A stretch of DNA of 64,000 nucleotides from Roseomonas gilardii (GTDB lineage: Bacteria; Pseudomonadota; Alphaproteobacteria; Acetobacterales; Acetobacteraceae). How positions within the stretch are numbered: the first letter of the stretch is position 1; every line of letters starts with the position of its first letter. The position numbers and the translations under genes are program-made. The notes beneath the pieces were generated by a model. The model saw nothing but the letters and a program-made list of their open reading frames with translations, was not told the origin of the DNA and ran no database searches. The stretch spans positions 1 through 64,000 of the forward strand of contig NZ_CP015584.1 in assembly GCF_001941945.1 (NCBI RefSeq), in the 5' to 3' direction. This document shows positions 37,269 through 51,634 of the stretch, in pieces.

Positions 37269-38057
37269 TCACCTAAGTATTTGAATGCAATCTCTGTTCA
37301 CGTTTTTATAGAGCAGATAGGCGCTTTCCCCCCAGCCGGTCGCATAGAATTGCTGCGGCACATAGGGGCCCATCCAGACGAAGTCGCCTGCCCAGCACTC
37401 GTGCCATTCGCGTCCGAGCAGATAGAGACCCTGCCCTTCCAGCATGTAGAGGCCGTGCTCCATCACATGGGTTTCGACGAAGGGGAAATACGTGCCGGGC
37501 GCGAAGGAGAGGATGTTCACCTCCATGTCCATCGCCATGTCCGCCTCGCCCAGTAGGGTCTGCCAGGCACGCCCCTCGGTGTGCTTGTACAGGCGCGGCA
37601 CTTCCTCACGCCGCCCGCTGAAGGCGGATCGGGGAGCGATGCCGGGCGCGGGTTCATAGGTCTTCCGCAGCCAGATGGCGCGCGCCGATCCTGCCTGCGC
37701 ATTGAAGGTGAAAGGCGTGCCGGCGGGAACATAGGCAAAGCCACCGGCCGAGAGCCGCCAGGTCTCTTCGCCCACCGCCACCTTCACGGTGCCATCGAGC
37801 ACATAGAGGAACTGCTGCAACCCGTCGTCACGGACGCCGCTCGTGCCGCCGCCTTCCTCCATCTCCAGCAGGGCCTGGGTGAAGCCCGCGCCCATGGCCG
37901 GACTGGTCTGGACACGAATCCTGCACCCGGCGATCCCGGGCATGCGGCTTTCCAGGATGCCTTCGGGCGGCATCACCGCATAATGCGGTGTCACCATGGT
38001 GCGGTTGCTGCCGTAAATGCCCGGCGGCAGGATGCCAGGGCGCGCGGGCGGGTTCAT
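37269..38057 (-). CDS. allE: (S)-ureidoglycine aminohydrolase
   Basis: 262 aa, a double-cupin protein. Recognisable pieces are PGIYGSNRTMVTPHYAVMPP, SGVRDDGLQQFLYVLDGTVK and YFPFVETHVMEHGLYMLEGQ followed by WAGDFVWMGPYVPQQFYATG. The enzyme is Mn-dependent and releases ammonia from (S)-ureidoglycine in purine/allantoin breakdown. Its 3' end borders the prophage, and upstream it diverges from a GcvA-type LysR gene. Confidence 0.85.
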   Translation of the reverse strand: MNPPARPGILPPGIYGSNRTMVTPHYAVMPPEGILESRMPGIAGCRIRVQTSPAMGAGFTQALLEMEEGGGTSGVRDDGLQQFLYVLDGTVKVAVGEETWRLSAGGFAYVPAGTPFTFNAQAGSARAIWLRKTYEPAPGIAPRSAFSGRREEVPRLYKHTEGRAWQTLLGEADMAMDMEVNILSFAPGTYFPFVETHVMEHGLYMLEGQGLYLLGREWHECWAGDFVWMGPYVPQQFYATGWGESAYLLYKNVNRDCIQILR

Positions 38058-38154
38058 GGGGTGTCTCTCCGAAGAAGCCGGGTGATCTGCCCATGCCTGA
38101 AAGACCGAGGCAAACCAGTTGTTCTCCGTGCCAGGAGAAGGTTTTCTATGCCTC

Positions 38155-39069
38155 ATGCGCCGCCAGCTCCCTCCCCTCAACGCCATCCGCGCCTTCGAGG
38201 CCGCCGCCCGCCTCGGCGGCTTCGCCGCGGCGGGCGTGGAACTCGGCGTGACGCCCGGCGCCGTCAGCCAGCAGGTCCAGTTGCTGGAGGCCCGGCTGTC
38301 CCGGCAGCTCTTCGATCGCGGACCACGCTCCCTGCGCCTGACACAGGATGGAAGGGCCCTGCTGCCGGTGCTGACCGAGGCGCTGGACGGAATGGAGGCG
38401 GGCATCCTGCGCGCCCTGGTTCCCCGTCCGCGCGTGGAGGTCTCGGTCTTCGCCCAGACCTCCTTCGCGCTCGGCTGGATGTTGCCGCGGCTGCCGAGGT
38501 TCCAGCGCGAGCAGCCCGAGGTGGAACTGCGCCTTTCCACCGGCATCGATGCGCCGGACCTGCGCGGCGGGCCGGATGCGGTGGTGCTGCATGGCCGTGG
38601 CCCCTGGCCGGACCTCGCCACGCACCTCCTGTTCCCCGACCGGCTGGTGCCGGTCTGCTCGCCCGGCTGGCTCGCCGCCCATGGCGCGCCGGAGCCACGC
38701 CGCCTGGCCGGTGAGACGCTGCTCGTCTCCGACACGGCGCCGGAGGACTGGGAGGAGTGGTTCGCCCATGCCGGCCTGCGCGGCCTCGCGCCGGAGCGGC
38801 CGCTCCGCTTCGGCTCCTCGCTGTTGCCGCCCCAGGCAGCGCTGCACGGTCTGGGCGTGGCACTCGCCGACCAGTCGCTGGTCGCGGCGGAACTCGATGC
38901 CGGGCGGCTGATCAATCCTGCTCCGGCCCTGCCACCCCTGGTGCGCGGCACCGGCTGGCACCTGGCCCACCTGCCAGCCCGCCGGCGGGAGGCACCGCTG
39001 GTTGCCCTGCGCGACTGGCTGTTGCGGGAGGCGCGTGTGCCAGCCTTCGGGATGGCCCAGTGCGGCTGA
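38155..39069 (+). CDS. LysR-family regulator, GcvA type
   Basis: 304 aa. The N-terminal HTH is LPPLNAIRAFEAAARLGGFA then VELGVTPGAVSQQVQLLEAR, the GcvA-like signature; the rest is a periplasmic-binding-like effector domain. It is divergent from allE with 97 bases between, so it may regulate purine catabolism, but the ligand is unknown. ATG 38155 is preferred because GcvA-type proteins begin M-R-R-x-L-P-P-L. Confidence 0.8.
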   Translation: MRRQLPPLNAIRAFEAAARLGGFAAAGVELGVTPGAVSQQVQLLEARLSRQLFDRGPRSLRLTQDGRALLPVLTEALDGMEAGILRALVPRPRVEVSVFAQTSFALGWMLPRLPRFQREQPEVELRLSTGIDAPDLRGGPDAVVLHGRGPWPDLATHLLFPDRLVPVCSPGWLAAHGAPEPRRLAGETLLVSDTAPEDWEEWFAHAGLRGLAPERPLRFGSSLLPPQAALHGLGVALADQSLVAAELDAGRLINPAPALPPLVRGTGWHLAHLPARRREAPLVALRDWLLREARVPAFGMAQCG

Positions 39070-39178: not shown

Positions 39179-40579
39179 CTAGCCCTCTGCCTCCGTCCTG
39201 TCGTCCCGGAGGTGGCGGTCGATCCGGATCTCCAGCTTCTTCATGCGGTGCCAGAAGCTGCGCTCGCTGATGCCCAGGCGCTCGGCCGCGCGCGCCTGCA
39301 CGCCCCCCGATTGCCGCAGCGCCTCCAGCATCATCTCGCGCTCCAGCCGCGACAGCTCGGCATCCAGATCCCCCGGCAGCCGCGTCGAGGCACCGGACGG
39401 CATCCGGGCATCGAAGAGATAGCGCGGCAGGTCCGGGAGGTCGATGATCCCCGTCCGCGCCACGATCACCGCCCGCTCCACGCAGTTCTGTAGCTCCCGC
39501 ACATTGCCCGGCCAGTCATAGCTCTCCATGGCCGCCAGCGCCGCCGGGCTGAAGCCGGAGATGCGCTTGCCCATCGAGGCAGCGTGCTGCTGCAGGAAAC
39601 GCTGTGCGAGCAGCGGTACGTCGCCGGTCCTCTGGTTCAGGGGCGGCACGGTGATCGGGAAGACGTTCAGGCGGTAGAACAGATCCTCGCGGAACTGGCC
39701 GGCCTCCACCGCGCGCCGCAGGTCGCGATGCGTCGCGGCGACGATGCGCACATCCACCTTGACGGTCCGCGTGCTGCCGACCGGCTCGAAGCACTGCTCC
39801 TGGATCGCGCGCAGCAGCTTCGCCTGGATGGCGAGCGGCATGTCGCCGATCTCGTCCAGGAACAGCGTGCCCTGATGCGCCATGGTGAAGCGTCCGTCGC
39901 GGTTGGCGATGGCGCCGGTGAAGGCGCCCTTCACATGGCCGAACAGCTCGCTTTCCAGCAGCGTTTCGGGAATCGCGGCGCAGTTCACCGCGACGAAGCC
40001 GCGCTTGCGCCGGTCGCTGTTGTAGTGGACGGCGCGGGCGAAGAGCTCCTTGCCCGTTCCGCTCGGCCCCTGCAGCAGCACCGTGGCACGGCTCTCGCAG
40101 ACCTCCGCGACCTGCTGCAGCGCCTCCTGGAAGATCGGGCTGTGGCCGACCAGGTTGGAGAAGTCGTGACGCCCCTCCAGCTCCTGCCGCAGGCGCTGGT
40201 TCTCGCTCTCCACCTGCTGCACATGCAGGGCGCGCTGGATGGTGGTCACCACATCGTCGAGGTCGAAGGGCTTGGCGACGTAATCGAAGGCGCCCTCCTT
40301 CACCAGCTCCACCGCGTCGCGCACGCTGGCATAGGCCGTCATCACCACGACCGGCAGGCCGGGATGCCCGGCCCGCAGGCGCCGCAGCAGCTCCTGCCCC
40401 GAAAGCCCGGGCATCCGCAGGTCCGTCAGCACGAGATCCACGCGCTGCGTGGCCACATGCCCGAGGGCCGCGTCGGCGGAGCAGACGAAAGCGGTCTCGA
40501 AGCCCCGCCCTTCGAGCCCGACGGCCAGCACCTCCGCCAGCCTTGCCTCGTCGTCAACGATCAGGATGGAGGAAGCCAT
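39179..40579 (-). CDS. Sigma54-dependent response regulator (NtrC family)
   Basis: 466 aa. Receiver domain 1-120 with phospho-acceptor Asp in LVLTDLRMPG and Lys in VAKPF; AAA+ domain about 140-375 with Walker A GPSGTGKE, the sigma54-contacting GAFTGA loop and Walker B LFLDEIGDM; C-terminal Fis-type HTH (ALRQSGGVQARAAERLGISE). It activates sigma54 promoters. Last gene of a six-gene overlapping operon; it overlaps the kinase gene by 26 bases. Two sigma54 promoters in the divergon at 46.3-46.6 kb are its likely targets. Confidence 0.93.
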   Translation of the reverse strand: MASSILIVDDEARLAEVLAVGLEGRGFETAFVCSADAALGHVATQRVDLVLTDLRMPGLSGQELLRRLRAGHPGLPVVVMTAYASVRDAVELVKEGAFDYVAKPFDLDDVVTTIQRALHVQQVESENQRLRQELEGRHDFSNLVGHSPIFQEALQQVAEVCESRATVLLQGPSGTGKELFARAVHYNSDRRKRGFVAVNCAAIPETLLESELFGHVKGAFTGAIANRDGRFTMAHQGTLFLDEIGDMPLAIQAKLLRAIQEQCFEPVGSTRTVKVDVRIVAATHRDLRRAVEAGQFREDLFYRLNVFPITVPPLNQRTGDVPLLAQRFLQQHAASMGKRISGFSPAALAAMESYDWPGNVRELQNCVERAVIVARTGIIDLPDLPRYLFDARMPSGASTRLPGDLDAELSRLEREMMLEALRQSGGVQARAAERLGISERSFWHRMKKLEIRIDRHLRDDRTEAEG

Positions 40580-42419
40580 CACCTTTCTCCTCGGCGAGAG
40601 GGAAATGGAAGACGAAGCGGGCTCCGCCGCCGATCCGGTTCTCAGCCTCGATGCGGCCGCCATGCCTCTCCACGACGGCGCGCACGCGGGCCAGGCCCAG
40701 GCCGGTGCCCTGCAGCTTGCTGGTCACGAAGGGATCGAAGAGCCGGTCCACGATCTCCAGAGCGATGCCCTTGCCCGTGTCCTCCACGCTCGCCAGCACG
40801 GTTGTGGCCTCCCGCGACACGCGGATAGTGATCTCTCCCCCTTCCGGCATCGCCTCCATGGCGTTGATCAGCACGTTCAGGAACGCTTGATGCAGCAGTT
40901 CGGCATCTCCGGCGATCCTGACCGGGAGGGAGGGCTTCAGGATCGCGCAGGTGATGCCCCGGCGGCTCATCTCCGCCTCGGCGAAATCAGCCACGCCGGC
41001 GATCACGTCGTCCGCCAGGTCCAGCACCTGCAGCCGGAGGGCACGCGGCCGCGCGTAGTCGATCAGGTCCTGGACGAGATGATCGATACGCTTCACCTCG
41101 TCCAGCACGAAGTCCAGCAGCCGCGCGGTCCCGGGCGAAAGCTCCTCGCGGCCCCGGATCACCTGGCTGGATGTCTTGATGATGCCCAGCGGGTTGCGGA
41201 TCTCGTGAGCGATGGTGGTGGCGGCCTCGCCGAGTGTGGCGAGCGTCTCCCGCCGCCGCATCTCCGCCTCCATGCTGCGCAGCCGCTCCAGCTGCTCCGT
41301 CATGGCGTTGAAGCCGCCGGTCAGCTCCGCGAGCTCGCCGTCCCCGCTTTCCCGGACACGGGTCGCGTAGTTGCCGCTCGCCACCTGCCGCAGGCCGGCC
41401 GTCAGGTCCCTGACCGGGCGGGAGATCCGCGCGGACACGAAGAGCGCCACCACGAAGGAGAGCAGGCCGGAGCAGAGCGACAGGGCGAGGAAGAGTTGCA
41501 GCAGGCCCAGATTCGACAGGACCGGCGTGTTGCTGGCAAGGCGGGCGGCGATGATCCCGACGAGCGCGCCCTGACGGTCGCGCAGCGCGGCAAAGCCGGT
41601 GGCCAGCCGGTCGTCCGGCAGCGCCAGGGCGGAAACGCTTTGCTCGCCGGCCTCCAGGCGGGCGAGGACCTCTGGCGGGACGGTGAAGCCGGGATGACCC
41701 TCCCGTTTCGAGAAGCTGAGCGCCGGCGTGCCCTTGGCGCCGAAATAGCTGACCTGCAGCGAGGAGATCGCCTGCGCGGCGGCGATCAGGCGATCATTCA
41801 CCTTGTCCGCCACGAAGGCGACATAGGGCCGCCCCTCGAAAAGGAAGCGATGGGCGGAGCCGAGCAGCAGGACCGGCGTGCCGCCTGCCATGGTCATGTA
41901 GAATCCGGCCTCGTCCTGCCGGGGCAGCCAGCCGGCGTCGCTGGACAGGCCTTGGCTCAGCACCACATGGCCCGCCGGGTCATACAGGGCGACCAGGTCA
42001 TAGCCCGTGGAGATCAGGAGATCGGCGGAGAAGCTGGCGAGGCCGCCCTCCAGCGTCTGGGCATGGGTCAGGCTGTTGGCGAAAAGGGCGGTGGCCAGCC
42101 GTGCCTCCTCCTCCGCCTCCAGCAGCTGCCTCACGATGAGCCGCGCGGTGTCGTTCAGCCAACGTTCCCGGCTGCGCTCGAAGCGCGAGGAGATCATCTC
42201 CGCCGCGACATAGCTCGCCAGCAGCACGGGAATGACGCTCACCAGCATGAAGGCGAAGGTCAGCTGCCAGCGCAGCCTGACCTTTGGGAAAACCGAATCC
42301 CGCAGCCGGGCCCAGGAGCGCGGCGACAGGCCCTCTCCGCGGTCCCTCGGCTTCCAGGTGGGCGGCACCTCGCCGGCGGGCCTTCGCCCAGCCCCGGCCT
42401 CACCCCCGGACGGCGTCAT
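40554..42419 (-). CDS. Membrane histidine kinase paired with the sigma54 regulator
   Basis: 621 aa: a cytoplasmic proline-rich start, membrane spans at about 50-72 (TFAFMLVSVIPVLLASYVAA) and 283-310 (LFLALSLCSGLLSFVVALFV), a periplasmic sensor region between, HAMP, then H-box TTIAHEIRNPLGIIKTSS and the N, G1 and G2 boxes (NVLINAMEAMPEGG, DTGKGI, GTGLGLARVR). It overlaps the acyltransferase gene by 20 bases and the regulator gene by 26. Confidence 0.9.
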   Translation of the reverse strand: MTPSGGEAGAGRRPAGEVPPTWKPRDRGEGLSPRSWARLRDSVFPKVRLRWQLTFAFMLVSVIPVLLASYVAAEMISSRFERSRERWLNDTARLIVRQLLEAEEEARLATALFANSLTHAQTLEGGLASFSADLLISTGYDLVALYDPAGHVVLSQGLSSDAGWLPRQDEAGFYMTMAGGTPVLLLGSAHRFLFEGRPYVAFVADKVNDRLIAAAQAISSLQVSYFGAKGTPALSFSKREGHPGFTVPPEVLARLEAGEQSVSALALPDDRLATGFAALRDRQGALVGIIAARLASNTPVLSNLGLLQLFLALSLCSGLLSFVVALFVSARISRPVRDLTAGLRQVASGNYATRVRESGDGELAELTGGFNAMTEQLERLRSMEAEMRRRETLATLGEAATTIAHEIRNPLGIIKTSSQVIRGREELSPGTARLLDFVLDEVKRIDHLVQDLIDYARPRALRLQVLDLADDVIAGVADFAEAEMSRRGITCAILKPSLPVRIAGDAELLHQAFLNVLINAMEAMPEGGEITIRVSREATTVLASVEDTGKGIALEIVDRLFDPFVTSKLQGTGLGLARVRAVVERHGGRIEAENRIGGGARFVFHFPLAEEKGDGFLHPDR

Positions 42420-43617
42420 GCCTGCCCATATCGCGCAGGTCGGGGTCCCAGCGATCGAAGGCCAGATAGGGTGCGGCGAGGCGCAGCGCCCGGTTCAGCA
42501 CAGGATTTCGGTGTCGGACGAAGATGGCGGAGGGCTCCAGACGGCTTCCGAAACGCAATTTGGAGGCATAGGCGGTCTGGCCGGATTGCAGCAGATGGCG
42601 TCCTGTTTCCAGAGCGAAGCGGACATTCTCCGCCCAGCTCACGGCATAGAGATTATGTTGCCGTGCCAGGGGGTAGGCCATGCCCAGGAACTTGTCGATG
42701 ACGCGGTCCTGTTCCAGCAGCAGCAGGTTGAAGGCCGCCAGCTCCCCGCCCACCCAGTAGAGCACGAAGCGCACCCGGCCCGGCAGGGCCTCGGCCACGG
42801 CGCGGAAATAGTCCCGGGGGAGTTCCTCGAAGGAGCCGTAATGCACGCCACTCTGCTGCCGGGTGGATTCATAGAGCCCCTCGATCGCCGCGGCGAGTTC
42901 CCCCGGATGCTCCCTGTGCTCGATGCGCACCGCCCCGGCGCCGCGCAGCTTCCGCCGCAGGTCCTTGCGCGTGCCAGCGGACAGAGAGGCGAGATAGGCC
43001 TCCATTCCACCCATGCCTGCCCTCACGCCCAGATCCAGCACGGCGACCGGCAGGCTGGCGATGCGCCGGAACCCGGCGGGCTCCAGCACCGGCTCCAGCC
43101 GTGCGGCATCCCCGGCATCGAGATCCTTGAAGGCCAGGAGCGGGGCGCGCGCCGCCCGGGCCTCCGTCTCCAGCGCCCTGAGCAGGGCCCGCAGCGCCGC
43201 AGCCTCCCGTTCCGCCGTCAGTCCGGGCCGCAGGGCGAGGTGGCAGCGCTCCGTGAAGGGGGAGCCCACCGCCAGCAGCCTCATCTCCGCCACCGGGCGA
43301 AGCAGCCGGGACAGGCCGCGCCCCAGCCGCCCGGAACCCTCCTGCAACGGTGTGTCGAGGCGGTAGGACATGCGGAACAGCGGCACGGCCGCGACCAGCC
43401 CCCGCCCGTCCCGGACAGCCGCCGCGCCGATCCGCAACTCCGGCAATGCCCCGGCCTCGCAGGCGGCGTGGTAGGCCCAGTCCTCCGCCTCGCCGGGCAG
43501 GCAGGCCTCCCAGGCCTCGCGCGGCAGGGCACGGATGCCGGGAAGGATTCCGGCCCACAGCCTGGCATCCGCACCGGGCTCCATGGCCTCGGGCGACAGG
43601 CCTCCCTCAGACAGCAT
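42400..43617 (-). CDS. GNAT/FemAB-like acyltransferase
   Basis: 405 aa. The C-terminal half has the Acetyltransf_6 (BioF2-like) pattern: LASLSAGTRKDLRRKLRGAG, SFEELPRDYFRAVAEALPGR, then VGGELAAFNLLLLEQDRVID. These enzymes transfer acyl or aminoacyl groups to amines. It overlaps both the hydrolase and kinase genes, so it belongs to the operon. Start chosen at ATG 43617; upstream codons at 43635/43638 are possible. Confidence 0.7.
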   Translation of the reverse strand: MLSEGGLSPEAMEPGADARLWAGILPGIRALPREAWEACLPGEAEDWAYHAACEAGALPELRIGAAAVRDGRGLVAAVPLFRMSYRLDTPLQEGSGRLGRGLSRLLRPVAEMRLLAVGSPFTERCHLALRPGLTAEREAAALRALLRALETEARAARAPLLAFKDLDAGDAARLEPVLEPAGFRRIASLPVAVLDLGVRAGMGGMEAYLASLSAGTRKDLRRKLRGAGAVRIEHREHPGELAAAIEGLYESTRQQSGVHYGSFEELPRDYFRAVAEALPGRVRFVLYWVGGELAAFNLLLLEQDRVIDKFLGMAYPLARQHNLYAVSWAENVRFALETGRHLLQSGQTAYASKLRFGSRLEPSAIFVRHRNPVLNRALRLAAPYLAFDRWDPDLRDMGRHDAVRG

Positions 43618-44485
43618 CGCGCAGGCCGCCCGCATCATTGTCGGCGGCCATTTCCGGCGCCACGGACAGCGGCGCCAGATCACGGTCGCCGAACTGGCGG
43701 ACGAAATCGGCCACCCGCCGGTTCACGACCTGGCGCTGCCGGTCCACCGTGATGATGTGGTAGCTGTCCTCCAGTACCAGCGTCTCCACCCGGCCGCCGA
43801 GATGGCGCTGGAAGTGGAAGGCGTTGCGCAGGCTCGCCACGTCGTCCTCGCGCGCATGGATCAGCAGCGTATCCTGGCGGATCTCCGGCAAGGTGCCGCG
43901 CATGTCCGCGACCAGACGCCACATCTCCCGGATCGCCAGGGCCGGCGTCGCCTCCAACCCGGCATCGAGGTTGCCTGGCGTGGTCAGGGACTTCTGGACC
44001 CAGCGGCGGATGCGGGGATCCTTGATGCCGAAGGGCTCCTGTTCCCGGAAGCGGTAGCGGCGGCCGAAGGGCAGATGCACCAGCCCGCGCAGGAGAAAGC
44101 TGAAACGCGGCATCGCCCAGCCGTCATAGCGCAGGGTCGGAGCCAGCAGGACCAGCCCCTGGACCCGCTCCGGCTCCTCCCGCGCCAGTCGGGCAGCCAG
44201 CACGGCCCCCATGGACAGGCCGCCGACGATCACCGTGTCGCAGCTTTCGCTCAGCCGGGTCAGCGCGGCCTCGGCGCTGGCATACCAGTCGCGCCAGCCG
44301 GTGCCAGCCAGTTGCTCTTCCGTACCGCAGTGGCCGGCGAGCTGGCAGCAGAGCACATGGGCGCCGGTCCCGTAGAGGCTCCGGCCAAGATGCACCATCT
44401 CGGCCGGGGTGCCGCCCAGCCCATGGATCAGCAGCACACCGGTCCTGGTCCGGCCCCGGAGGAAGCAACTGCGGTCAACGATCAT
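43607..44485 (-). CDS. Alpha/beta hydrolase (esterase/lipase-like)
   Basis: 292 aa. GVLLIHGLGGTPAEMVHLGR forms the oxyanion strand, IVGGLSMGAVLAARLAREEP the nucleophile elbow (G-L-S-M-G), LLIHAREDDVAS the acid and LVLEDSYHIITVD the histidine. It resembles carboxylesterases/monoacylglycerol lipases. ATG 44485 overlaps the stop of the arginase-fold gene (ATGA). Confidence 0.8.
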   Translation of the reverse strand: MIVDRSCFLRGRTRTGVLLIHGLGGTPAEMVHLGRSLYGTGAHVLCCQLAGHCGTEEQLAGTGWRDWYASAEAALTRLSESCDTVIVGGLSMGAVLAARLAREEPERVQGLVLLAPTLRYDGWAMPRFSFLLRGLVHLPFGRRYRFREQEPFGIKDPRIRRWVQKSLTTPGNLDAGLEATPALAIREMWRLVADMRGTLPEIRQDTLLIHAREDDVASLRNAFHFQRHLGGRVETLVLEDSYHIITVDRQRQVVNRRVADFVRQFGDRDLAPLSVAPEMAADNDAGGLRDAV

Positions 44486-45510
44486 GCGGAAAGGCCTCGG
44501 GCGGCGGGGAGCTGTTCGGAAGGAAGGGGGAGGGGAGGGGTCGTTCCGGGCAGGGCGCCGAAGCCCTCCAGGATGCGGCGGTTGCTGCGGTCGTTGACGG
44601 CAAGCGCGGCCGCGGAAGGCTCCGGCACGACGGCCCGGTCGGTGGCGGAAAGCAGCCAGCGGAAGGGGTCGCGGAAACGTGGCTGCGAGTAGTCGCCGCA
44701 GACATCCATCCCCAGAATGCCGCGCCGGCGGCCGAGCCGTTGCACCGCGCCCAGGATCGCCGACAGCGCCATGCCGCCCTGTTCCCAGTTGGTCAGCGCC
44801 TCGTCGGGGCCCAGCACGTCCTTGTCCAGCGAAACCCAGAGCGGGCGGTCGGGCAGCCGCGCATCCAGCGCTTCCAGGAAGCCGTCCCAGGAGGCATCGG
44901 CCAGGGAATCCCAGGCGATGCGGCCACCGCCGGCACGGCAGCCCGGCACCACGAAGGGGCGTCCCCAGTAGCGGCTCTCCGAACCCTGCCAGGCATGTAC
45001 TTCCAGCCGCCCTTCGCGCAGGGCGCGGAGATTGGCACCCTTCCATTGTGGCCGGACCAGATCGTCCCCCGCCGGGCCGATGGTCACCACCTGCGCCACC
45101 TGTGGCAGTTCCAATGCCCGGTTGACCCAGGCGCCACAGTTCACCGTGGCCGGGAAGCGCACCCAGTCCGGGTGGTTGTCGAAATGCAGCAGCGTCACCT
45201 CCTCGCGCAGCCGGGCGAGGAAGAGCGTGGCGAGGTGATGGAAGTCGCCGGAGCCATAGAAGGCGATGGTGCCGGGGGCATTCTCCGCCCCCACCGCCTC
45301 GTGCAGCCTTTCCCGCAACCGCTCCAGGGGCTTTCGGGCGGCGACGATGCGCAGCCGGGGAGCCAAGTCGCGTGCCTCGATGCGAAGCGCGCGCCCGTCG
45401 TGCAACAGCCCGGCGAGTACAGGCTGGGCCGTCAGGGAGTCATCCAGGTCCAGCACCAGCACGGGCGGGCGTGCCGTCGCACTCCCGGTGCCGGTCCGCT
45501 CAAGCCCCAT
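44482..45510 (-). CDS. Arginase-fold (ureohydrolase-like) protein
   Basis: 342 aa. Metal-ligand motifs of the ureohydrolase fold are present in variant form: GSGDFHH, LLHFDNHPDWVRF (D-x-H-x-D) and LWVSLDKDVLGPDEALTN (S-x-D-x-D). The rest diverges from arginases and agmatinases, so the substrate may be a different guanidino or amide compound. Starts 10 bases after the HAD gene. Spacing of ligands suggests it is active. Confidence 0.65.
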   Translation of the reverse strand: MGLERTGTGSATARPPVLVLDLDDSLTAQPVLAGLLHDGRALRIEARDLAPRLRIVAARKPLERLRERLHEAVGAENAPGTIAFYGSGDFHHLATLFLARLREEVTLLHFDNHPDWVRFPATVNCGAWVNRALELPQVAQVVTIGPAGDDLVRPQWKGANLRALREGRLEVHAWQGSESRYWGRPFVVPGCRAGGGRIAWDSLADASWDGFLEALDARLPDRPLWVSLDKDVLGPDEALTNWEQGGMALSAILGAVQRLGRRRGILGMDVCGDYSQPRFRDPFRWLLSATDRAVVPEPSAAALAVNDRSNRRILEGFGALPGTTPPLPLPSEQLPAARGLSA

Positions 45511-45520
45511 CGAAAGGGCC

Positions 45521-46255
45521 TCAGGCAAGGCTACGCTCCCGCCAGGCGCGCGGGCCGCTCGCGGGGACACCCAGCTGGGCCTCCGGACCCCGGGGGCGGT
45601 GCGACCGACTCTCCAGCCATGCGACAAAGCGGGGGAGCAGTTCGGAGAAGTCGTGGAAGGGCTGGTGCGCGATGCCCTCGGCCTCGCAATGGGCGATCAG
45701 GCGGCTCTTGGCGAAGACGAACTCGGCTTCCCCGGCGGCGCAGAAATCGGAACGCCCATCGCCGATCAACAGCCCCGGCACGACGGCGGGGCCGGTGAAG
45801 CGGGCGCATTTGCAATGACCGGACGCGGCCCGGCATTCGGCGCGGGCATGAGGAAAGCGCAGCGCCCATTGTTCCGCGCCCACCTGCTCCAACCGGTTGG
45901 CCAGGACAGGGATATCGCCCAGGCCGGCACGGCGCAGCACGCCCGACACCACGCGGTCGAGCCCATCGGAAAGGACCGTCACCGGCAGGCCCCGCTTCCG
46001 GCAGAAGGCAATGAAATCCGGAACACCCGGATCGATCCGCAGGGTGGCGATGAAGCCGTCGAGGGCCTCCGGCGTCAGGCGCAGCAGCGCCACCTGCTGC
46101 CGCAGGCATTCGCGCGAGCCGATCGCGCCGCGCAGCCAATCGGCCTCGACATCCAGCCAGGCCGGATCGGCAAAGCGTTCCAGGAGGAGGTCGGTCGTAT
46201 CCCGAAGGGAGATCGTGCCGTCGAAATCGATATGGACCTGGAACTCTGCGGACAC
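45521..46255 (-). CDS. MtnX-like HAD-IB phosphatase
   Basis: 244 aa from GTG 46255. HAD motif I VHIDFDGTIS, motif II VTVLSDGLD and motif IV LLIGDGRSDFCAA are intact, and DTTDLLLERFADPAWLDVEA is typical of MtnX-like phosphatases. No other methionine-salvage gene is near, so a different small phosphomonoester is likely. First gene of the leftward operon; a perfect sigma54 promoter ends 37 bases upstream. Confidence 0.8.
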   Translation of the reverse strand: MSAEFQVHIDFDGTISLRDTTDLLLERFADPAWLDVEADWLRGAIGSRECLRQQVALLRLTPEALDGFIATLRIDPGVPDFIAFCRKRGLPVTVLSDGLDRVVSGVLRRAGLGDIPVLANRLEQVGAEQWALRFPHARAECRAASGHCKCARFTGPAVVPGLLIGDGRSDFCAAGEAEFVFAKSRLIAHCEAEGIAHQPFHDFSELLPRFVAWLESRSHRPRGPEAQLGVPASGPRAWRERSLA

Positions 46256-46292
46256 CGTGCTGGCCTCATCAAGGGCGGGTAGTGCCGCCAGC

Positions 46293-46307
46293 GCAAGGCG
46301 CGTGCCA
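46293..46307 (-). promoter_or_regulatory. Sigma54 promoter of the leftward operon
   Basis: On the minus strand the sequence TGGCACGCGCCTTGC matches the sigma54 consensus TGGCACG-N4-TTGC at every fixed position, with GG and GC 10 bases apart. Transcription would start near 46281, leaving a short leader of about 26 bases with an AGG before GTG 46255. Confidence 0.85.
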
Positions 46308-46381
46308 CAGGATGTCCGGAGGGGAAACCGGCCCCCGGCCTATGTAAACCAGGGGGAGAGCAGCCTGCCCAGCCAAGCTGA

Positions 46382-46402
46382 AAGCTACAAAATTTGTAGC
46401 TT
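46382..46402. promoter_or_regulatory. 21-bp perfect palindrome, candidate enhancer site
   Basis: AAGCTACAAA and TTTGTAGCTT flank a single A. The palindrome stands out as AT-rich in a GC-rich region and lies about 110 bases from the leftward and 175 from the rightward sigma54 start points, the range usual for NtrC-type upstream activator sequences. Binding by the regulator at 39179-40579 is inferred. Confidence 0.65.
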
Positions 46403-46541
46403 CCTTCGCGATGCGAGGGGCCAGCACTTGGCCAGCCATGCCCTTCCACCAATGCGGAACTTCTATAGCTCACCGATAAAAATAAGCTGAATCAAATCAT
46501 TGCCTGGCGAAGTGAATTCCGTTGCAGCCGTGCGGCAGGGG

Positions 46542-46557
46542 TGGAACGGCGCCTGCA
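46542..46557 (+). promoter_or_regulatory. Sigma54 promoter of the rightward operon
   Basis: TGGAACG-GCGC-CTGCA matches the sigma54 consensus TGGCACG-N4-TTGCA except one base in each element; the invariant GG and GC are 10 bases apart. Start would be near 46568, 83 bases before the aminotransferase ATG. Confidence 0.65.
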
Positions 46558-46650
46558 ATAGCCTCCCCACCGGCCTGCCGGTCCCGCGCCCCCGGTGGCA
46601 TGGCGACCTGGGGGCGCGGCAGATCGGTATCCGTTGAGACACGAGACATC

Positions 46651-47994
46651 ATGACCCTCCGCTACCAGAACCCGGAACGCAGCCGGACCAGCGCCGACCT
46701 CTTCGACAAGGCCAGCGAAGTGATCCCAGGGGGCGTCAACAGCACCGCCCGCGCCACTTGGTCGGGCTGGGACCCTTATCCGCTTTTCATCTCGCACGGC
46801 ACCGGCGCGCGTCTGACCGATGTCGATGGCAACGAGTACATCGACTACCTGCTCGGCCTCGGCCCGATGCTTCTCGGCCACCGGCCGCCGCGTGTGACCC
46901 AGGCGGTGGTGGACTGCATCCAGGAACGCGGCACGGTCTTCGCCCTCCCGGCGGCGGAGGAAACGGATCTCGCCCGCAAGATCATCGCCGCCATCCCGAG
47001 CGTCGAACAGGTCCGCCTCTGCAACACGGGGACGGAGGCCGTCCTCTACACCGTGCGCCTCGCCCGCGCCTTCACCGGCCGGCGCAAGGTGATCCGCTTC
47101 GAGGGCATGTATCACGGCTTCTCCGACGGTGTTTACTGGAGCAAGCACCCGGATCTGGGCCGCGCCGGCCCCGACGCCGCGCCTCGCCCGGTGCCGCAGG
47201 GCCCCGGCATGCCGGCGGGCATCGACCAGTCGCTGATCATCCTCCCCTGGAACGATATCGCCGCGCTGCGCGAGGTGCTGGAGCGCGAGGGCGACGACAT
47301 CGCCGCCGTGCTCACCGAGCCGGTGATGTGCAACACCGGCTGCATCCTGCCCGAGCCCGGCTATCTGGAAGCGATGCGCGACCTGACGCGCAAGCACGGC
47401 GTGCTGCTGATCTTCGACGAGGTCATCACCGGCTTCCGCATCGGCCTCGCCGGCGCGCAGGGGCATTACGGCATCACACCGGACCTGTCGGTCTTCGCCA
47501 AGGGTCTCGGCGGTGGCTTCCCGGTCGCCGCCATGGGCGGACGGCGCGACATCATGGCGCTGGTGGCCGAGGGCCGCGTCTCCATCGCCGGCACCTACAA
47601 CGCCAATGCCATCGCGGTGGCGGCGGCGAACGCGGCGCTGGACGAACTGGCTCAGCCCGGCATGTACGAGCGCCTCTACCGCGTCTCCGACCGGCTGCGC
47701 GAAGGGCTGCAGCGCCTCGTGCACGACCTGCGCGCTCCTGCGCATGTCGTGGGCCTCGGCCCGGTCTTCCAGCTCTGGTTCTCACGCGAGCCGATCCGCA
47801 ACTACCGCGACGCGGCACGCCATGCCGACCACGGCGCCTTCCGCCACTGGTGGGAAGGGATGCTGGAGCGCGGCGTGCTGTTCCACCCCGGCGCCTATGA
47901 GAACCTCTTCGTCTCCTTCGCCCATACGGAGGATGACGTGGACCGCACGCTGGAGGCCGCCGAGGCCACGCTGCGCGAGATGCTGGTGGCCTGA
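46651..47994 (+). CDS. Class III (glutamate-1-semialdehyde aminotransferase-like) PLP enzyme
   Basis: 447 aa. ERSRTSADLFDKASEVIPGG and VNSTARATWSGWDPYPLFIS are the GSA-aminotransferase-like start; phosphate-binding LCNTGTEAV, IFDEVITGFRIG and the PLP lysine in SVFAKGLGGGFPVAAMGG follow. The rest differs from HemL, and the context is not tetrapyrrole synthesis, so the substrate is likely another amino compound. ATG 46651 heads the rightward operon. Confidence 0.85.
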   Translation: MTLRYQNPERSRTSADLFDKASEVIPGGVNSTARATWSGWDPYPLFISHGTGARLTDVDGNEYIDYLLGLGPMLLGHRPPRVTQAVVDCIQERGTVFALPAAEETDLARKIIAAIPSVEQVRLCNTGTEAVLYTVRLARAFTGRRKVIRFEGMYHGFSDGVYWSKHPDLGRAGPDAAPRPVPQGPGMPAGIDQSLIILPWNDIAALREVLEREGDDIAAVLTEPVMCNTGCILPEPGYLEAMRDLTRKHGVLLIFDEVITGFRIGLAGAQGHYGITPDLSVFAKGLGGGFPVAAMGGRRDIMALVAEGRVSIAGTYNANAIAVAAANAALDELAQPGMYERLYRVSDRLREGLQRLVHDLRAPAHVVGLGPVFQLWFSREPIRNYRDAARHADHGAFRHWWEGMLERGVLFHPGAYENLFVSFAHTEDDVDRTLEAAEATLREMLVA

Positions 47995-48071
47995 ATGACG
48001 ACACGGGTGGCGGTGCGGCGACGCCTCGCCGCCCGTGGCATGGCGCGCCGCGCAGCCGGCACGGAGTTCCC

Positions 48072-48422
48072 ATGTCCACGATGATCCTGACGTTCTGGAT
48101 GCTCAACATCCTGCTCGACACGGGCGGGCAACTGGCCTTCAAGGCGGCCGCCCGCACCGGCGGCGAGGGCATGGCGCGCTGGCGGGCGATGGCGGCGCGG
48201 CCCTGGCTGTGGTTCGGCCTCGGCTGCTACGTGGCCGAATTCGTGGTCTGGCTCGCCTTCCTGTCCCTGGTGCCGCTGTCGGATGGGGTACTGCTGGGTT
48301 CGGTGAACATCATCGCCATCATGATCGCTGGTCGCTTCCTGTTCGGCGAGGCGCTGACCCGGCTGCGCGTGGCGGGCATCCTGCTCGTCGCCTTCGGGGT
48401 GGCCGTGGTGGGGATCGGCTGA
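48072..48422 (+). CDS. SMR/EamA-type small transporter (ArnE/F-like), first of pair
   Basis: 116 aa with four membrane spans (ILTFWMLNILLDTGGQLAFK, WLWFGLGCYVAEFVVWLAFL, VPLSDGVLLGSVNIIAIMIA, VAGILLVAFGVAVVGIG). The size and the ..GQLAFK-A pattern match ArnE/ArnF-like subunits, which flip undecaprenyl-linked aminosugars as heterodimers. Its stop overlaps the start of its paralog. Confidence 0.75.
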   Translation: MSTMILTFWMLNILLDTGGQLAFKAAARTGGEGMARWRAMAARPWLWFGLGCYVAEFVVWLAFLSLVPLSDGVLLGSVNIIAIMIAGRFLFGEALTRLRVAGILLVAFGVAVVGIG

Positions 48423-48883
48423 TGCGGCGCTTCTACCTGTTGGGCTTCCTGCTGCTGCTCTCCTTCGACGCGCTGGCGCAGATCAGCTTCAAATACGCCG
48501 CCAACGGCGCATTGCCGGTGACGGCCGACCTCGCCTGGCTGGGCCGGGTCCTGGCACAGCCGTGGGTCTATGTCGCGCTGTGCGGCTATCTCGGTGCCTT
48601 CTTCACCTGGATGGCCCTGCTCCGGCACGCGCCGATCGGCCCTGCCTTCGCCGCCTCGCATCTGGAGGTGCTGCTCGTGATGGTGCTTGCCGTGCCGCTT
48701 TTCGGCGAGCATCTGGGCTGGGCGCAGCTCCTGGGCGGTGCGGCGATCCTGGCCGGGATCGTCTGCCTGGCCCTGAGCGAGACAGAGGAGCCCGGAGCCG
48801 AGGTCCCGGCTGCCCTCCCATCTGCGCCGCAGCGGGGCGGCGTGCCAGCCGGGGCGCCGCTTCCCGGCACCTTCCCGGGGTGA
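48422..48883 (+). CDS. SMR/EamA-type small transporter (ArnE/F-like), second of pair
   Basis: 153 aa: four spans in residues 1-118 (FLLLLSFDALAQISFKYAAN matches the first span of the paralog) plus a proline-rich cytoplasmic tail of about 35 residues. TGATG coupling to the partner and GTGA coupling to the aminotransferase suggest an obligate heterodimer within one transcript. Confidence 0.75.
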   Translation: MRRFYLLGFLLLLSFDALAQISFKYAANGALPVTADLAWLGRVLAQPWVYVALCGYLGAFFTWMALLRHAPIGPAFAASHLEVLLVMVLAVPLFGEHLGWAQLLGGAAILAGIVCLALSETEEPGAEVPAALPSAPQRGGVPAGAPLPGTFPG

Positions 48884-50130
48884 GTCCCGCCGCTCCCGGG
48901 GTGCCGCGGCGTTCCCGCTGGCGCGAATTGCCGCCGACCGCTGGCCTGCCACTCCTCTGGCGCGATCTGCTCCCGGGCGGCGGGGCGGACGGGCTGGAGG
49001 CGGCGCTGGCGGATTTCCTCGGCGTGGAGGAGGTTCTGCTCACCTGCTCCGGCACCGCGGCGCTGATGGTGGCGCTGCGCTGCCTGATGGCGCGGAGCAG
49101 CCGGCGACGCGTGGCAGTGCCGGGCTTCACCTGCCCGCTGGTGGCTATCGCCATCCATGCCCTGGGGCTGGAGGTCTGCCCCTGCGACACGCTCCCCGGC
49201 ACGGCGGAGCTGGACCCGGACAGCCTCGCGCCGCTCTGCGACGACAGGCTGTTGGCGATGCTGCCCACCCATCTTGCCGGACGGGTGGCGGTCCTGGACA
49301 CGGTGCTGGCTCTGGCCGAGGGGTGCGGCGCCTGGGTGATCGAGGACGCCGCCCAGGCGCTGGGTGCGCGGGCAGGGGGCGTGCCGGTCGGGCTCCGGGG
49401 GCATATCGGTTTCTACAGTCTGGCTGCCGGCAAGGGTCTGACGCTCTACGAAGGCGGCGTGCTGGTCAGCCGCGATCCGGCGCTGCGCCAGGGGTTGCGG
49501 GACGCCGCCGATGCCATGCTGCGCCCCGGCCGATGGATGGAGGCGCGGCGGAGCCTGGAATTGCTCGGCTACGGGCTGCTCTACAACCCGCTGGGCCTGA
49601 CCCTGGCCTATGGCCGGGGCCTGCGCCGAGCGCTGCGTGCCGGCGACGCGGAAACGGCGCTCGGCGACCGCTTTCCGCTGGAGGTGCCGCTGCACCGCGT
49701 CGGGTCCTGGCGCCAAGCGGTGGGGCGTCGTGCCCTGACGCGGCTGCCGGGCTTCCTGGAGGCAACCCGAAAGCAGGGGCAGGGCTTCGCCGCACGTCTC
49801 GCCGCAGTGCCCGGCCTGCGCGTGCTCAGGGATCGCCCGGGGGAACAGGGCACCTGGCCCGTCCTGGTGCTGGTGTTCGACCGTGCCCGGGATGCCGAGG
49901 CCGTGCTTTCCCGGCTCTGGGGAGAGGGGCTGGGCGTCAGCCGCCTCTTCGCGCGCGCCCTGCCGGACTACGCCTATCTCCGTGGCATCGTCCCGGACCA
50001 CTCCTGTCCGCAGGCGCGCGACTTCGGGGCGCGTAGCCTCAGCATCGGCAACAGCCTCTTCCTGCGTCCCGAGGAGCAGGATCGCATCCTCTTGGTGCTG
50101 CGGGACGTGCTGCAACCCGGCCTCGCCTGA
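48880..50130 (+). CDS. DegT/DnrJ/EryC1-family aminotransferase (ArnB-like)
   Basis: 416 aa from GTG 48880. EVLLTCSGTAALMVALRCLM binds PLP phosphate, WVIEDAAQALGAR is the acidic PLP-ring contact and FYSLAAGKGLTLYEGGVLVS holds the Schiff-base lysine. The family aminates keto-sugars, as ArnB does for Ara4N, though some members act on other substrates. Together with the ArnE/F-like pair it points to an amino-modified lipid-linked product. Confidence 0.8.
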   Translation: MSPAAPGVPRRSRWRELPPTAGLPLLWRDLLPGGGADGLEAALADFLGVEEVLLTCSGTAALMVALRCLMARSSRRRVAVPGFTCPLVAIAIHALGLEVCPCDTLPGTAELDPDSLAPLCDDRLLAMLPTHLAGRVAVLDTVLALAEGCGAWVIEDAAQALGARAGGVPVGLRGHIGFYSLAAGKGLTLYEGGVLVSRDPALRQGLRDAADAMLRPGRWMEARRSLELLGYGLLYNPLGLTLAYGRGLRRALRAGDAETALGDRFPLEVPLHRVGSWRQAVGRRALTRLPGFLEATRKQGQGFAARLAAVPGLRVLRDRPGEQGTWPVLVLVFDRARDAEAVLSRLWGEGLGVSRLFARALPDYAYLRGIVPDHSCPQARDFGARSLSIGNSLFLRPEEQDRILLVLRDVLQPGLA

Positions 50131-50210: not shown

Positions 50211-51077
50211 TCAGGCGAGGAGCAGCCAGGCCAGGCTGCCAACCCCCGCGAGCAGGCAGTAATAGGCGAAGGGATTCAGCGCCCAGGCCTCGTGCTCGCG
50301 GAAGTAGCGCATCAGGAAGGCCGTGCTGAGCCAAGCGGTGACACCCGCGACGGCGGCCGCCAGGACCGAGAGGCCGAAGGTGCCGGGCGGGATGGCCGCG
50401 TGCAGCAGCTTCGGCACTTCCAGCACGGTTGCGCCCAGAATGATTGGCGTGGCGATCAGGAAGCTGAACCGGGCGGCGCCTTCATGGGAGATGCCGCGCA
50501 GCAGGCCGCCGACGATGGTGGCGCCGCTGCGGGAGATGCCGGGGATCAGGGCCCCACACTGCCACACCCCCACCACCAGGGCGTCCATCGGTGTGAGCGA
50601 GGACATGGAACGCGGCGCGGTGGCCCGTCCGCGCAGCCTTTCGCCGAACAGCAGCAACAGGCCATTCACCGCCAGGAAGACCGCGGCGGCCACCGGGGAA
50701 CCGAACAGGCCCCGCAGCCAGTGCTCCAGCGCGAAGCCGACGATCACGGCGGGAATGGTCGCGATGACGATGAGCAGGAGCAGGCGCCGGTTGTCCTGCA
50801 CCTCGACGGCCTGCCCCGTTCCCAGAACGCCCCGGAGGAGGGCCAGCCAGTCGCGCCAGAAGTAGAGCAGCAGCGCCAGCGCGGTGCCGACATGCAGCAT
50901 GACCAGGAAGGGCAGGAATTCCGGGGCGCGCTGGTCCAGGTTCCAGTGCAGCAGGGCCGGAAGCAGAACGGCATGGCCGAGGCTGCTGACGGGGAACAGT
51001 TCCGTCGCGCCTTGCAGGATCGCGATGAGGATGGCCTGGAGAGTGGTCAAGAAGGGCTTGCTCCTGCTGTCCGCCAT
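50211..51077 (-). CDS. uppP: Undecaprenyl-diphosphate phosphatase
   Basis: 288 aa with about eight membrane spans. The two signature regions are ILQGATELFPVSSLGHAVLL and CGALIPGISRSGATIVGGLL. It recycles undecaprenyl diphosphate to the monophosphate carrier for peptidoglycan and envelope glycan synthesis. It converges on the DegT gene. ATG 51077 begins MADSRSKPFLTT. Confidence 0.93.
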   Translation of the reverse strand: MADSRSKPFLTTLQAILIAILQGATELFPVSSLGHAVLLPALLHWNLDQRAPEFLPFLVMLHVGTALALLLYFWRDWLALLRGVLGTGQAVEVQDNRRLLLLIVIATIPAVIVGFALEHWLRGLFGSPVAAAVFLAVNGLLLLFGERLRGRATAPRSMSSLTPMDALVVGVWQCGALIPGISRSGATIVGGLLRGISHEGAARFSFLIATPIILGATVLEVPKLLHAAIPPGTFGLSVLAAAVAGVTAWLSTAFLMRYFREHEAWALNPFAYYCLLAGVGSLAWLLLA

Positions 51078-51634
51078 TCGGGCCCGCCGGGTGCGGGGCA
51101 GGTCCGGATGCCGGCGTTGATGTGAGGCCGGGAGGGCAGGGGGTGGAGGGCTTCGAGGCCGGCACATGCCGGCCGACGGATGACGCGCCGACGTTGCCGC
51201 TGCCGCCAGGGCTGCGGGCCCCGGAAAGGCGCCCCGTCCCTCCGGGGCGGCGGGTGGCGCCTGCCTCAGTCCGGCGCGGGGTCCAGCCTCCCGTCCCTGT
51301 GGCGGCGCGCGGCCGTGACGCCCGTATCGGGGTTTGAACGGGACATCGTCGGCGCCTCTGCGGCCAGGAAGGGCCCGCACCATGGGGGCGAGCACATTGC
51401 CACGCCCTCGCCGGGTAATGTGCTTTTCCCAATGAAGCAGGGGCCGGGCCCACATTCCGTCCGCCGATTGCCGGAAAGCCGCGGAGGTCTCCGGCGGCGA
51501 CCTTGCCGCATGGCCGGGACGCGCGCCGGTCCGGGCGGCCGGAACGCCGCTTCCCAGGTGCCGGCCCGGCTGATAGGCCAGGGCCGGTGCCCCAGCCGGG
51601 CGCGTTGCCGTTGCTTCCTGCCGGACCTCCGCCC
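51078..51634. other. Intergenic region, divergent uppP and antiporter
   Basis: 557 bases with no credible gene; open frames here are GC-driven shadows. I see no clear promoter hexamers or strong hairpins, though both flanking genes must start here. Confidence 0.4.

Follow-up and report, generated by a model that had tools for sequence, protein, structure and literature searches.

Gene Content and Layout of the Locus

The Roseomonas gilardii locus comprises ten genes within a stretch of 64,000 nucleotides, hereafter the window. Six genes run leftward (39179–46255) and four rightward (46651–50130), diverging from one intergenic region, and all ten genes of the locus outlined in the original prediction for this DNA were found. 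The left arm runs from a HAD phosphatase through a ureohydrolase-like protein, an alpha/beta hydrolase, a GNAT protein, and a histidine kinase to an NtrC-type regulator. The right arm consists of a class III aminotransferase, two small EamA transporters, and a DegT aminotransferase. Neighboring genes in both arms overlap or are separated by a 10-base gap, the exception being 77 bases 3′ of the class III aminotransferase. The rpoN gene is present elsewhere in the R. gilardii genome. The genes were assigned as follows.

39179–40579, minus strand: NtrC-type response regulator (REC, sigma54-activating AAA+ with GAFTGA, Fis-type HTH; Pfam, NCBIfam, alignment A3)
40554–42419, minus strand: sensor histidine kinase (HAMP, HisKA, HATPase_c; Pfam, alignment, structure model)
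42400–43683, minus strand: GNAT/FemAB-like acyltransferase (Acetyltransf_6; Pfam)
43607–44485, minus strand: alpha/beta hydrolase (Hydrolase_4; Pfam; start deduced from the translation)
44482–45510, minus strand: ureohydrolase (arginase/agmatinase-fold) protein (Pfam, alignment, fold search; start deduced from the translation)
45521–46255, minus strand: MtnX-like HAD-IB phosphatase, first gene of the left operon, GTG start (Pfam, NCBIfam)
46651–47994, plus strand: class III aminotransferase, glutamate-1-semialdehyde-aminomutase-like, first gene of the right operon (Pfam, NCBIfam)
48072–48422, plus strand: small EamA transporter subunit, distantly related to ArnE (Pfam, NCBIfam)
48422–48883, plus strand: small EamA transporter subunit, distantly related to ArnF (Pfam, NCBIfam)
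48880–50130, plus strand: DegT/DnrJ/EryC1 aminotransferase (Pfam; start taken as the in-frame GTG at 48880, which overlaps the stop of the preceding gene)

On the 3′ side of the right operon, an ORF at 50211–51455 on the minus strand resembles an undecaprenyl-diphosphate phosphatase, judged from its translation rather than from a family scan. In Roseomonas mucosa, the counterpart past the right operon, again on the opposite strand, carries the annotation undecaprenyl-diphosphate phosphatase. Past the 3′ end of the regulator, the window holds ORFs (37269–39069) that we take to be cupin-like and LysR-like, while the neighbor on that side in the R. mucosa plasmid AP031463 is fumC; the flank of the cluster therefore differs.

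Regulator and Kinase

Activators of the NtrC type act from upstream binding sites: through the GAFTGA motif, they use ATP hydrolysis to open sigma54 polymerase. The leftward operon had been predicted to encode such an activator together with its kinase, and both proteins are present with their key residues conserved. The regulator carries the phosphoacceptor Asp, the AAA+ domain with GAFTGA, and the Fis-type HTH of NtrC-family enhancer-binding response regulators. Across the 33 rows of alignment A3, D53 is invariant, the HTH is conserved, and GAFTGA occurs in all but one row (GAFSGA, locus L015); the regulator of genome G628 has GSFTGA in its place. The phosphorylated histidine of the kinase, H405, is invariant in 20 rows. 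The N-terminal region of the kinase is probably extracytoplasmic, judging from the sequence, and outside the kinase core the structure model was too weak to name a sensor domain. In genome G011, the histidine kinase matches in three overlapping, frameshift-like pieces (L071:2654–4504, minus strand) beside an open regulator, which is either a real lesion or the product of assembly errors.

Four named regulators were considered and rejected as identities for this protein: ZraR (418.9 bits against the NCBIfam NF007689 cut-off of 760), AtoC (497.2 against 714, NF008469), NtrC or NR-I (444.4 against 558.6, TIGR01818), and the PEP-CTERM response regulator PrsR (414.6 against 502.6, TIGR02915).

Sigma54 Sites and Palindrome in the Intergenic Region

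Three features were located between the two arms.

46293–46307, minus strand: predicted leftward sigma54 (−24/−12) promoter of the six-gene operon, TGGCACGCGCCTTGC (pattern match, conservation)
46382–46402, no strand: 21-bp perfect palindrome (10+1+10), probable shared operator (enhancer) of the NtrC-type regulator (pattern, genome search, conservation)
46542–46556, plus strand: predicted rightward sigma54 promoter of the four-gene operon, TGGAACGGCGCCTGC(A) (pattern match, conservation)

Both promoter candidates have the GG at −24 and the GC at −12, 10 bases apart, in a sequence near TGGCACG-N4-TTGC. The left site, described as perfect in the original prediction, has 0 mismatches to this pattern. 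For the right site, described there as near-perfect, the intact GG and GC with their 10-base spacing stood, and the wording proved generous, as 2 of the 11 fixed positions deviate. No sigma70 promoters or intrinsic terminators were found in 45900–46900.

In a genome this rich in GC, matches to the sigma54 consensus do not by themselves clearly exceed chance. With up to 3 mismatches allowed, the window contains 247 occurrences of the pattern against 262 expected; the genome holds 11 perfect copies, and at up to 1 mismatch it holds 136 against 108 for a reversed control. Motif statistics alone were consequently rejected as evidence, and conservation was tested. The score of the left site was reached by 0 of 300 dinucleotide shuffles of a 430-bp stretch that covers the HAD start and the sequence upstream of it.

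The palindrome, by comparison, matches once in the window against 0.00 expected and in one place in the 5.41 Mb genome at up to 3 mismatches, and its score was likewise reached by none of the 300 shuffles of the same 430 bp. It lies between the two sigma54 sites, 10+1+10 with no mismatch, with 98 bp between its center and the −12 element of the left promoter and 163 bp between its center and that of the right promoter, distances within enhancer range; both its perfection and its position had been claimed in advance and are borne out. Among 397 genomes of the family, a palindrome with at most 1 mismatch occurs in two (G000, G011), both carriers of the cluster. At 2 mismatches, 7 genomes match against 22 for the reversed control: of the five genomes added, one is a carrier (G003), and the carrier G018 gives no match, so this level is noise.

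The single genomic copy and the search of 397 genomes suggest that the regulator probably has one target in this genome, namely this locus. A regulator with a wider regulon, of which the locus would be one target of several, is unlikely to our minds: variant operators (CTCCAAA..TTTGGAG) are seen in relatives, so distant sites could escape a 3-mismatch search, yet no second palindrome exists in the genome at that level.

Conservation in Related Clusters

A scan with the ureohydrolase-like protein yielded 51 loci. Clusters in which the HAD gene and the GSAM-like aminotransferase gene are divergent formed a set of 12: the window, three genomes of its genus or family, and eight named records from Roseomonas, Humitalea, Rubritepida, Azospirillum, Niveispirillum, and Oleisolibacter. 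Two pairs are identical, which leaves 10 distinct sequences. Loss of the GG/GC dinucleotides or of the palindrome in orthologous loci would have spoken against the original prediction, by its own terms. The GG-N10-GC of both promoters is kept in all 12 loci, and the palindrome occurs with at most 2 mismatches to the degenerate consensus AGCTmCAAAnTTTGkAGCT in 11 of them; the palindrome of the Rubritepida MAG is degenerate, with 4 mismatches.

Bosea, Mesorhizobium, Azorhizobium, and others mostly carry a single-operon version of the cluster, in the order HAD, a different class III aminotransferase, ureohydrolase, EamA, hydrolase, GNAT, usually a further EamA, kinase, and regulator. Here the sigma54 site starts 33–88 bases upstream of the HAD match, and the same or a variant operator, where found, is centered 74–104 bases above the −12 element. 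Upstream of HAD at L007:8168–8181 and in several Bosea loci, a second CTCCAA..TTGGAG-like site or half-site lies about 15–20 bp nearer the promoter, as if tandem dimers might bind. In a Bosea MAG (L014, 4769–6390, minus strand), ketosynthase and acyl carrier protein (ACP) genes diverge from the HAD operon and have their own leftward sigma54-like site (6374) and operator-like sequence (6547); two-way control thus appears to recur there.

Operator-to-promoter distances fall at 64, 73–76, 85–89, 94–98, 104–109, and 119, roughly 11 bp apart (R 0.57); significance is only moderate, with p 0.0025 at this period and p 0.018 over all periods tried. The test took one value per lineage, picked by hand, and for this reason the periodicity is suggestive only; it suggests putative binding to the same face of the DNA.

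Co-Occurrence of the Regulator and the Sites

The presence of the regulator was compared with that of the sites in a table of 47 clusters (46 loci and the window), where a site was counted if a sigma54 match upstream of the phosphatase gene had both GG and GC and agreed with the consensus at 9 or more of 12 bases. Such a site is present in 34 of 34 clusters with an NtrC-type regulator and in 0 of 7 clusters without one in the fetched flank. In those seven, the best match, if any, is receiver-type at no more than 56 bits, and no GAF[TS]GA motif occurs; two of them, L051 and L053, lie near contig ends. Six clusters are undecided because the contig ends before the usual place of the regulator: L028, L040, and L049 have sites, and L032, L033, and L036 have none. 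These six, and L069 as well, were counted on neither side. Left out of the table were L001–L004, which repeat the window or near relatives (the intergenic sequences of L002 and L004 are identical to those of L006 and L015). L005, L037, L052, and L054–L056 gave no match to the phosphatase gene, and L074, a further R. mucosa copy, was excluded from the counts. A Fisher test of regulator against site gave 4.4e-8 uncorrected for relatedness, which overstates the strength because relatives are not independent samples; the direction of the association is uniform throughout.

The operator was found with at most 5 mismatches, 60–130 bp from the −12 element, in 31 of the 34 regulator-bearing clusters; L029, L030, and L045 match it poorly, at 6 mismatches. 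For L014, L019, L020, and L034, the best operator-like match in the 430 bp searched lies at a distance of 308–343 bp, and a second match that is weaker or equally good lies at about 95 bp. The regulator-bearing L038 and L041 have weak sigma54 sites (9 of 12), whose scores were reached by 22 and 32 of 300 shuffles.

Loci fetched afterwards, and unused in forming the idea, comprised three with the regulator and eight without. The three (G628, Aureimonas AU20, and Azospirillum B510), with regulators 54–65% identical, all have an operator as well as two sigma54 sites, one on the HAD side and one facing it on the side of the aminotransferase; Aureimonas AU20 has one operator-like sequence per promoter (4 and 5 mismatches). 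The eight are plasmid clusters from three Agrobacterium, two Rhizobium, a Sinorhizobium, a Phyllobacterium, and a Xanthomonas, in which absence of the regulator was judged by tblastn and by the lack of GAF[TS]GA in six frames. An upstream sigma54 site together with the operator is absent from all eight, and the Xanthomonas cluster has a 9-of-12 sigma54 match just inside the gene. In seven of the eight, the annotation places a different response regulator, together with a kinase or an ATP-binding protein, beside the HAD gene. Among other loci without the NtrC-type regulator, the nearby response regulator is OmpR-type by Pfam in L042, L050, and L051, and none was seen near L026, L035, or L053.

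Two genomes contain two copies of the cluster each, Boseaceae BT-24-1 (L022 and L033) and Xanthobacter aminoxidans (L046 and L036). L022 and L046 have the NtrC-type regulator and the sites; L033 and L036 have no sites, and their contigs end before the regulator position. On plasmids of Rhizobium, Agrobacterium, Sinorhizobium, and Phyllobacterium (L072, L076–L079, L081, L082), a related set of enzymes is accompanied by another two-component system, and in some of them by a desaturase, cyclopropane synthase, or MipA.

These patterns bear on two other readings of the intergenic region. The palindrome could be the operator of another factor or a structural element, with the local NtrC-type regulator acting elsewhere, since AT-rich palindromes this long generally suit several regulator families. 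Yet the palindrome and the sigma54 site are jointly absent from clusters that keep the enzymes without the NtrC-type regulator, the distance from palindrome to promoter is in enhancer range, and neither Rfam at E up to 0.5 nor a search for terminators gave a match in the region, so that we regard this reading as highly improbable. It is also very unlikely that the leftward promoter alone depends on sigma54 and that the rightward match is fortuitous or a relic. The right site in the window does depart from the pattern at 2 positions, and none of the 12 divergent loci has the first T of TTGC there; nevertheless, GG-N10-GC is kept in all 12 of these loci as well as in G628, Aureimonas, and B510 despite diverged surroundings, and in Aureimonas each promoter has its own operator-like sequence.

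We are accordingly left with a confident, sequence-based reading of the intergenic region as a two-way, self-activating NtrC/sigma54 switch that would be run by the local two-component pair. The membrane histidine kinase would sense a signal and phosphorylate its NtrC-type partner, which would oligomerize on the palindrome and, by looping, open sigma54 polymerase at both divergent promoters. The predicted leftward output is HAD–ureohydrolase–hydrolase–GNAT–kinase–regulator and the rightward output aminotransferase–EamA–EamA–DegT. With the kinase and regulator genes closing the left operon, activation would feed back on itself and be self-reinforcing. The analysis establishes the sites, their conservation, and their co-occurrence with the regulator; binding, RpoN dependence, and autoactivation are predictions. 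By anatomy, with two divergent sites, a palindrome between them, and the regulator gene in one arm, the locus has the makings of a self-activating divergent sigma54 regulon. That the whole locus may be one regulon is suggested by this anatomy and the single genomic palindrome, and the original reading of one self-activating, signal-controlled regulon gains support from the conserved sites and from the co-occurrence of regulator and sites. For the ten genes, such a switch would imply a pair of transcription starts under a single operator and a single regulator.

Enzymes and Possible Product

The ureohydrolase-like protein passes the Pfam Arginase family (30.3 bits against a cut-off of 22), and a profile search with it returned ureohydrolases. 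The residues D110, H112, D114, D228, and D230, which form the DxHxD and DKD motifs, are invariant in the 27 rows of alignment A1. Its structure model has a pLDDT of 90.5, and the 50 Foldseek matches listed are ureohydrolases, at 10–19% identity and a TM of about 0.5; phmmer found no match in the PDB. Fold and metal-ligand Asp/His motifs, common to arginase, agmatinase, and guanidinase, place it in the Ureohydrolase superfamily, with the low identity just given to the matches listed. The class III aminotransferase passes the broader subfamily NF000818 (461.5 against 398 bits) and was rejected as HemL, at 439.3 bits against the TIGR00713 equivalog cut-off of 527.3; the aminotransferase of Bosea-type clusters is only 22–26% identical to it. 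The EamA pair was rejected as the ArnE/ArnF flippase, at 28.5 and 31.1 bits against NCBIfam cut-offs of 92 and 99. The DegT aminotransferase resembles sugar aminotransferases in NCBIfam.

Among related clusters, some contain genes for an acyl carrier protein and a ketosynthase, some a fatty acid desaturase, and some a cyclopropane-fatty-acid synthase; MipA is found in some, and MacB/TolC/HlyD-type exporters in others. On this gene content, the ten genes could tentatively be read as making, and moving across the membrane, an amine-bearing fatty-acyl compound (acylated amine or amino-lipid). This is the weakest step of our interpretation, and its acyl part comes from the relatives only, since none of the ten genes encodes an ACP or ketosynthase.

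A different product, an Arn-like aminosugar modification of an envelope glycolipid, is suggested by the distant likeness of the EamA pair to ArnE/ArnF, by the kinship of DegT to sugar aminotransferases, and by the phosphatase annotated next door in R. mucosa with its similar ORF in the window. We find it doubtful: Pfam assigns none of the ten proteins to a glycosyltransferase or sugar-nucleotide family, the ArnE/F scores are far below their cut-offs, DegT was not detected in Bosea-type clusters, and relatives have ACP, ketosynthase, desaturase, or cyclopropane synthase. As to the acylated amine or amino-lipid, no description of the cluster or its product was found in the open-access PMC literature, and the target pathway is apparently undescribed. 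The conserved, testable switch would offer a handle to turn on this pathway.

Distribution and Possible Exchange of the Control Module

The ureohydrolase-like gene is present in 5 of 120 relatives (one match weak) and in 3 of 387 genomes sampled from the class, the window's own included; two further sets of 7 and 6 genomes added none. It was found in 49 plasmid records, and gene neighborhoods were read in 11 of the 49. The Roseomonas plasmid records with the cluster (10 among the matches listed, and R. gilardii) are replicons of 0.36–0.44 Mb. The cluster occurs on large plasmids in human-associated R. mucosa, and a related form on plasmids of plant-associated Azospirillum, Rhizobium, and Agrobacterium.

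It is conceivable, at somewhat less than even chances, that these clusters represent a patchy, often plasmid-borne pathway for acylated-amine export in Alpha-, Beta-, and Gammaproteobacteria with an interchangeable control module, either an NtrC/sigma54 two-component system with palindrome and promoters or another two-component system. Regulator and cis-sites would be swapped together while the enzymes stay. Such exchange between clusters with the same enzymes would be a natural experiment in regulatory rewiring.

Comparison with Known Systems

The regulatory design is already known, and the controlled pathway is the undescribed part. In the PrsK/PrsR systems of exosortase/PEP-CTERM loci, GNAT/FemAB and alpha/beta hydrolase genes presumably also adjoin the gene for a two-component sigma54 regulator, as here; no exosortase was matched among the ten proteins in the Pfam and NCBIfam families listed.

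In ZraSR/zraP of E. coli and Salmonella, divergent sigma54 promoters flank a spacer to which the regulator binds, with autoregulation (PMC4987338, PMC8249747). The R. gilardii locus resembles this system in its NtrC-type regulator, its sensor kinase, and its divergent sigma54 promoters, which here are predicted from sequence. Since the regulator is below the cut-offs for ZraR, AtoC, NtrC, and PrsR, it would share the mode of action of ZraR but not its identity. The putative single-target regulon parallels the one high-affinity target found for E. coli ZraR by SELEX, although ChIP-seq reported 25 more (PMC8249747). The divergent target of ZraSR is one gene for a periplasmic zinc-binding chaperone, whereas here enzyme and transporter genes occur in both arms and the kinase and regulator close a six-gene operon. 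For Myxococcus xanthus, PMC7910581 reports that sigma54 and the enhancer-binding protein Nla28 directly drive natural-product genes, and that 74 of 83 putative promoters are intragenic. In R. gilardii, the predicted promoters are intergenic, and the activator gene lies inside the cluster.
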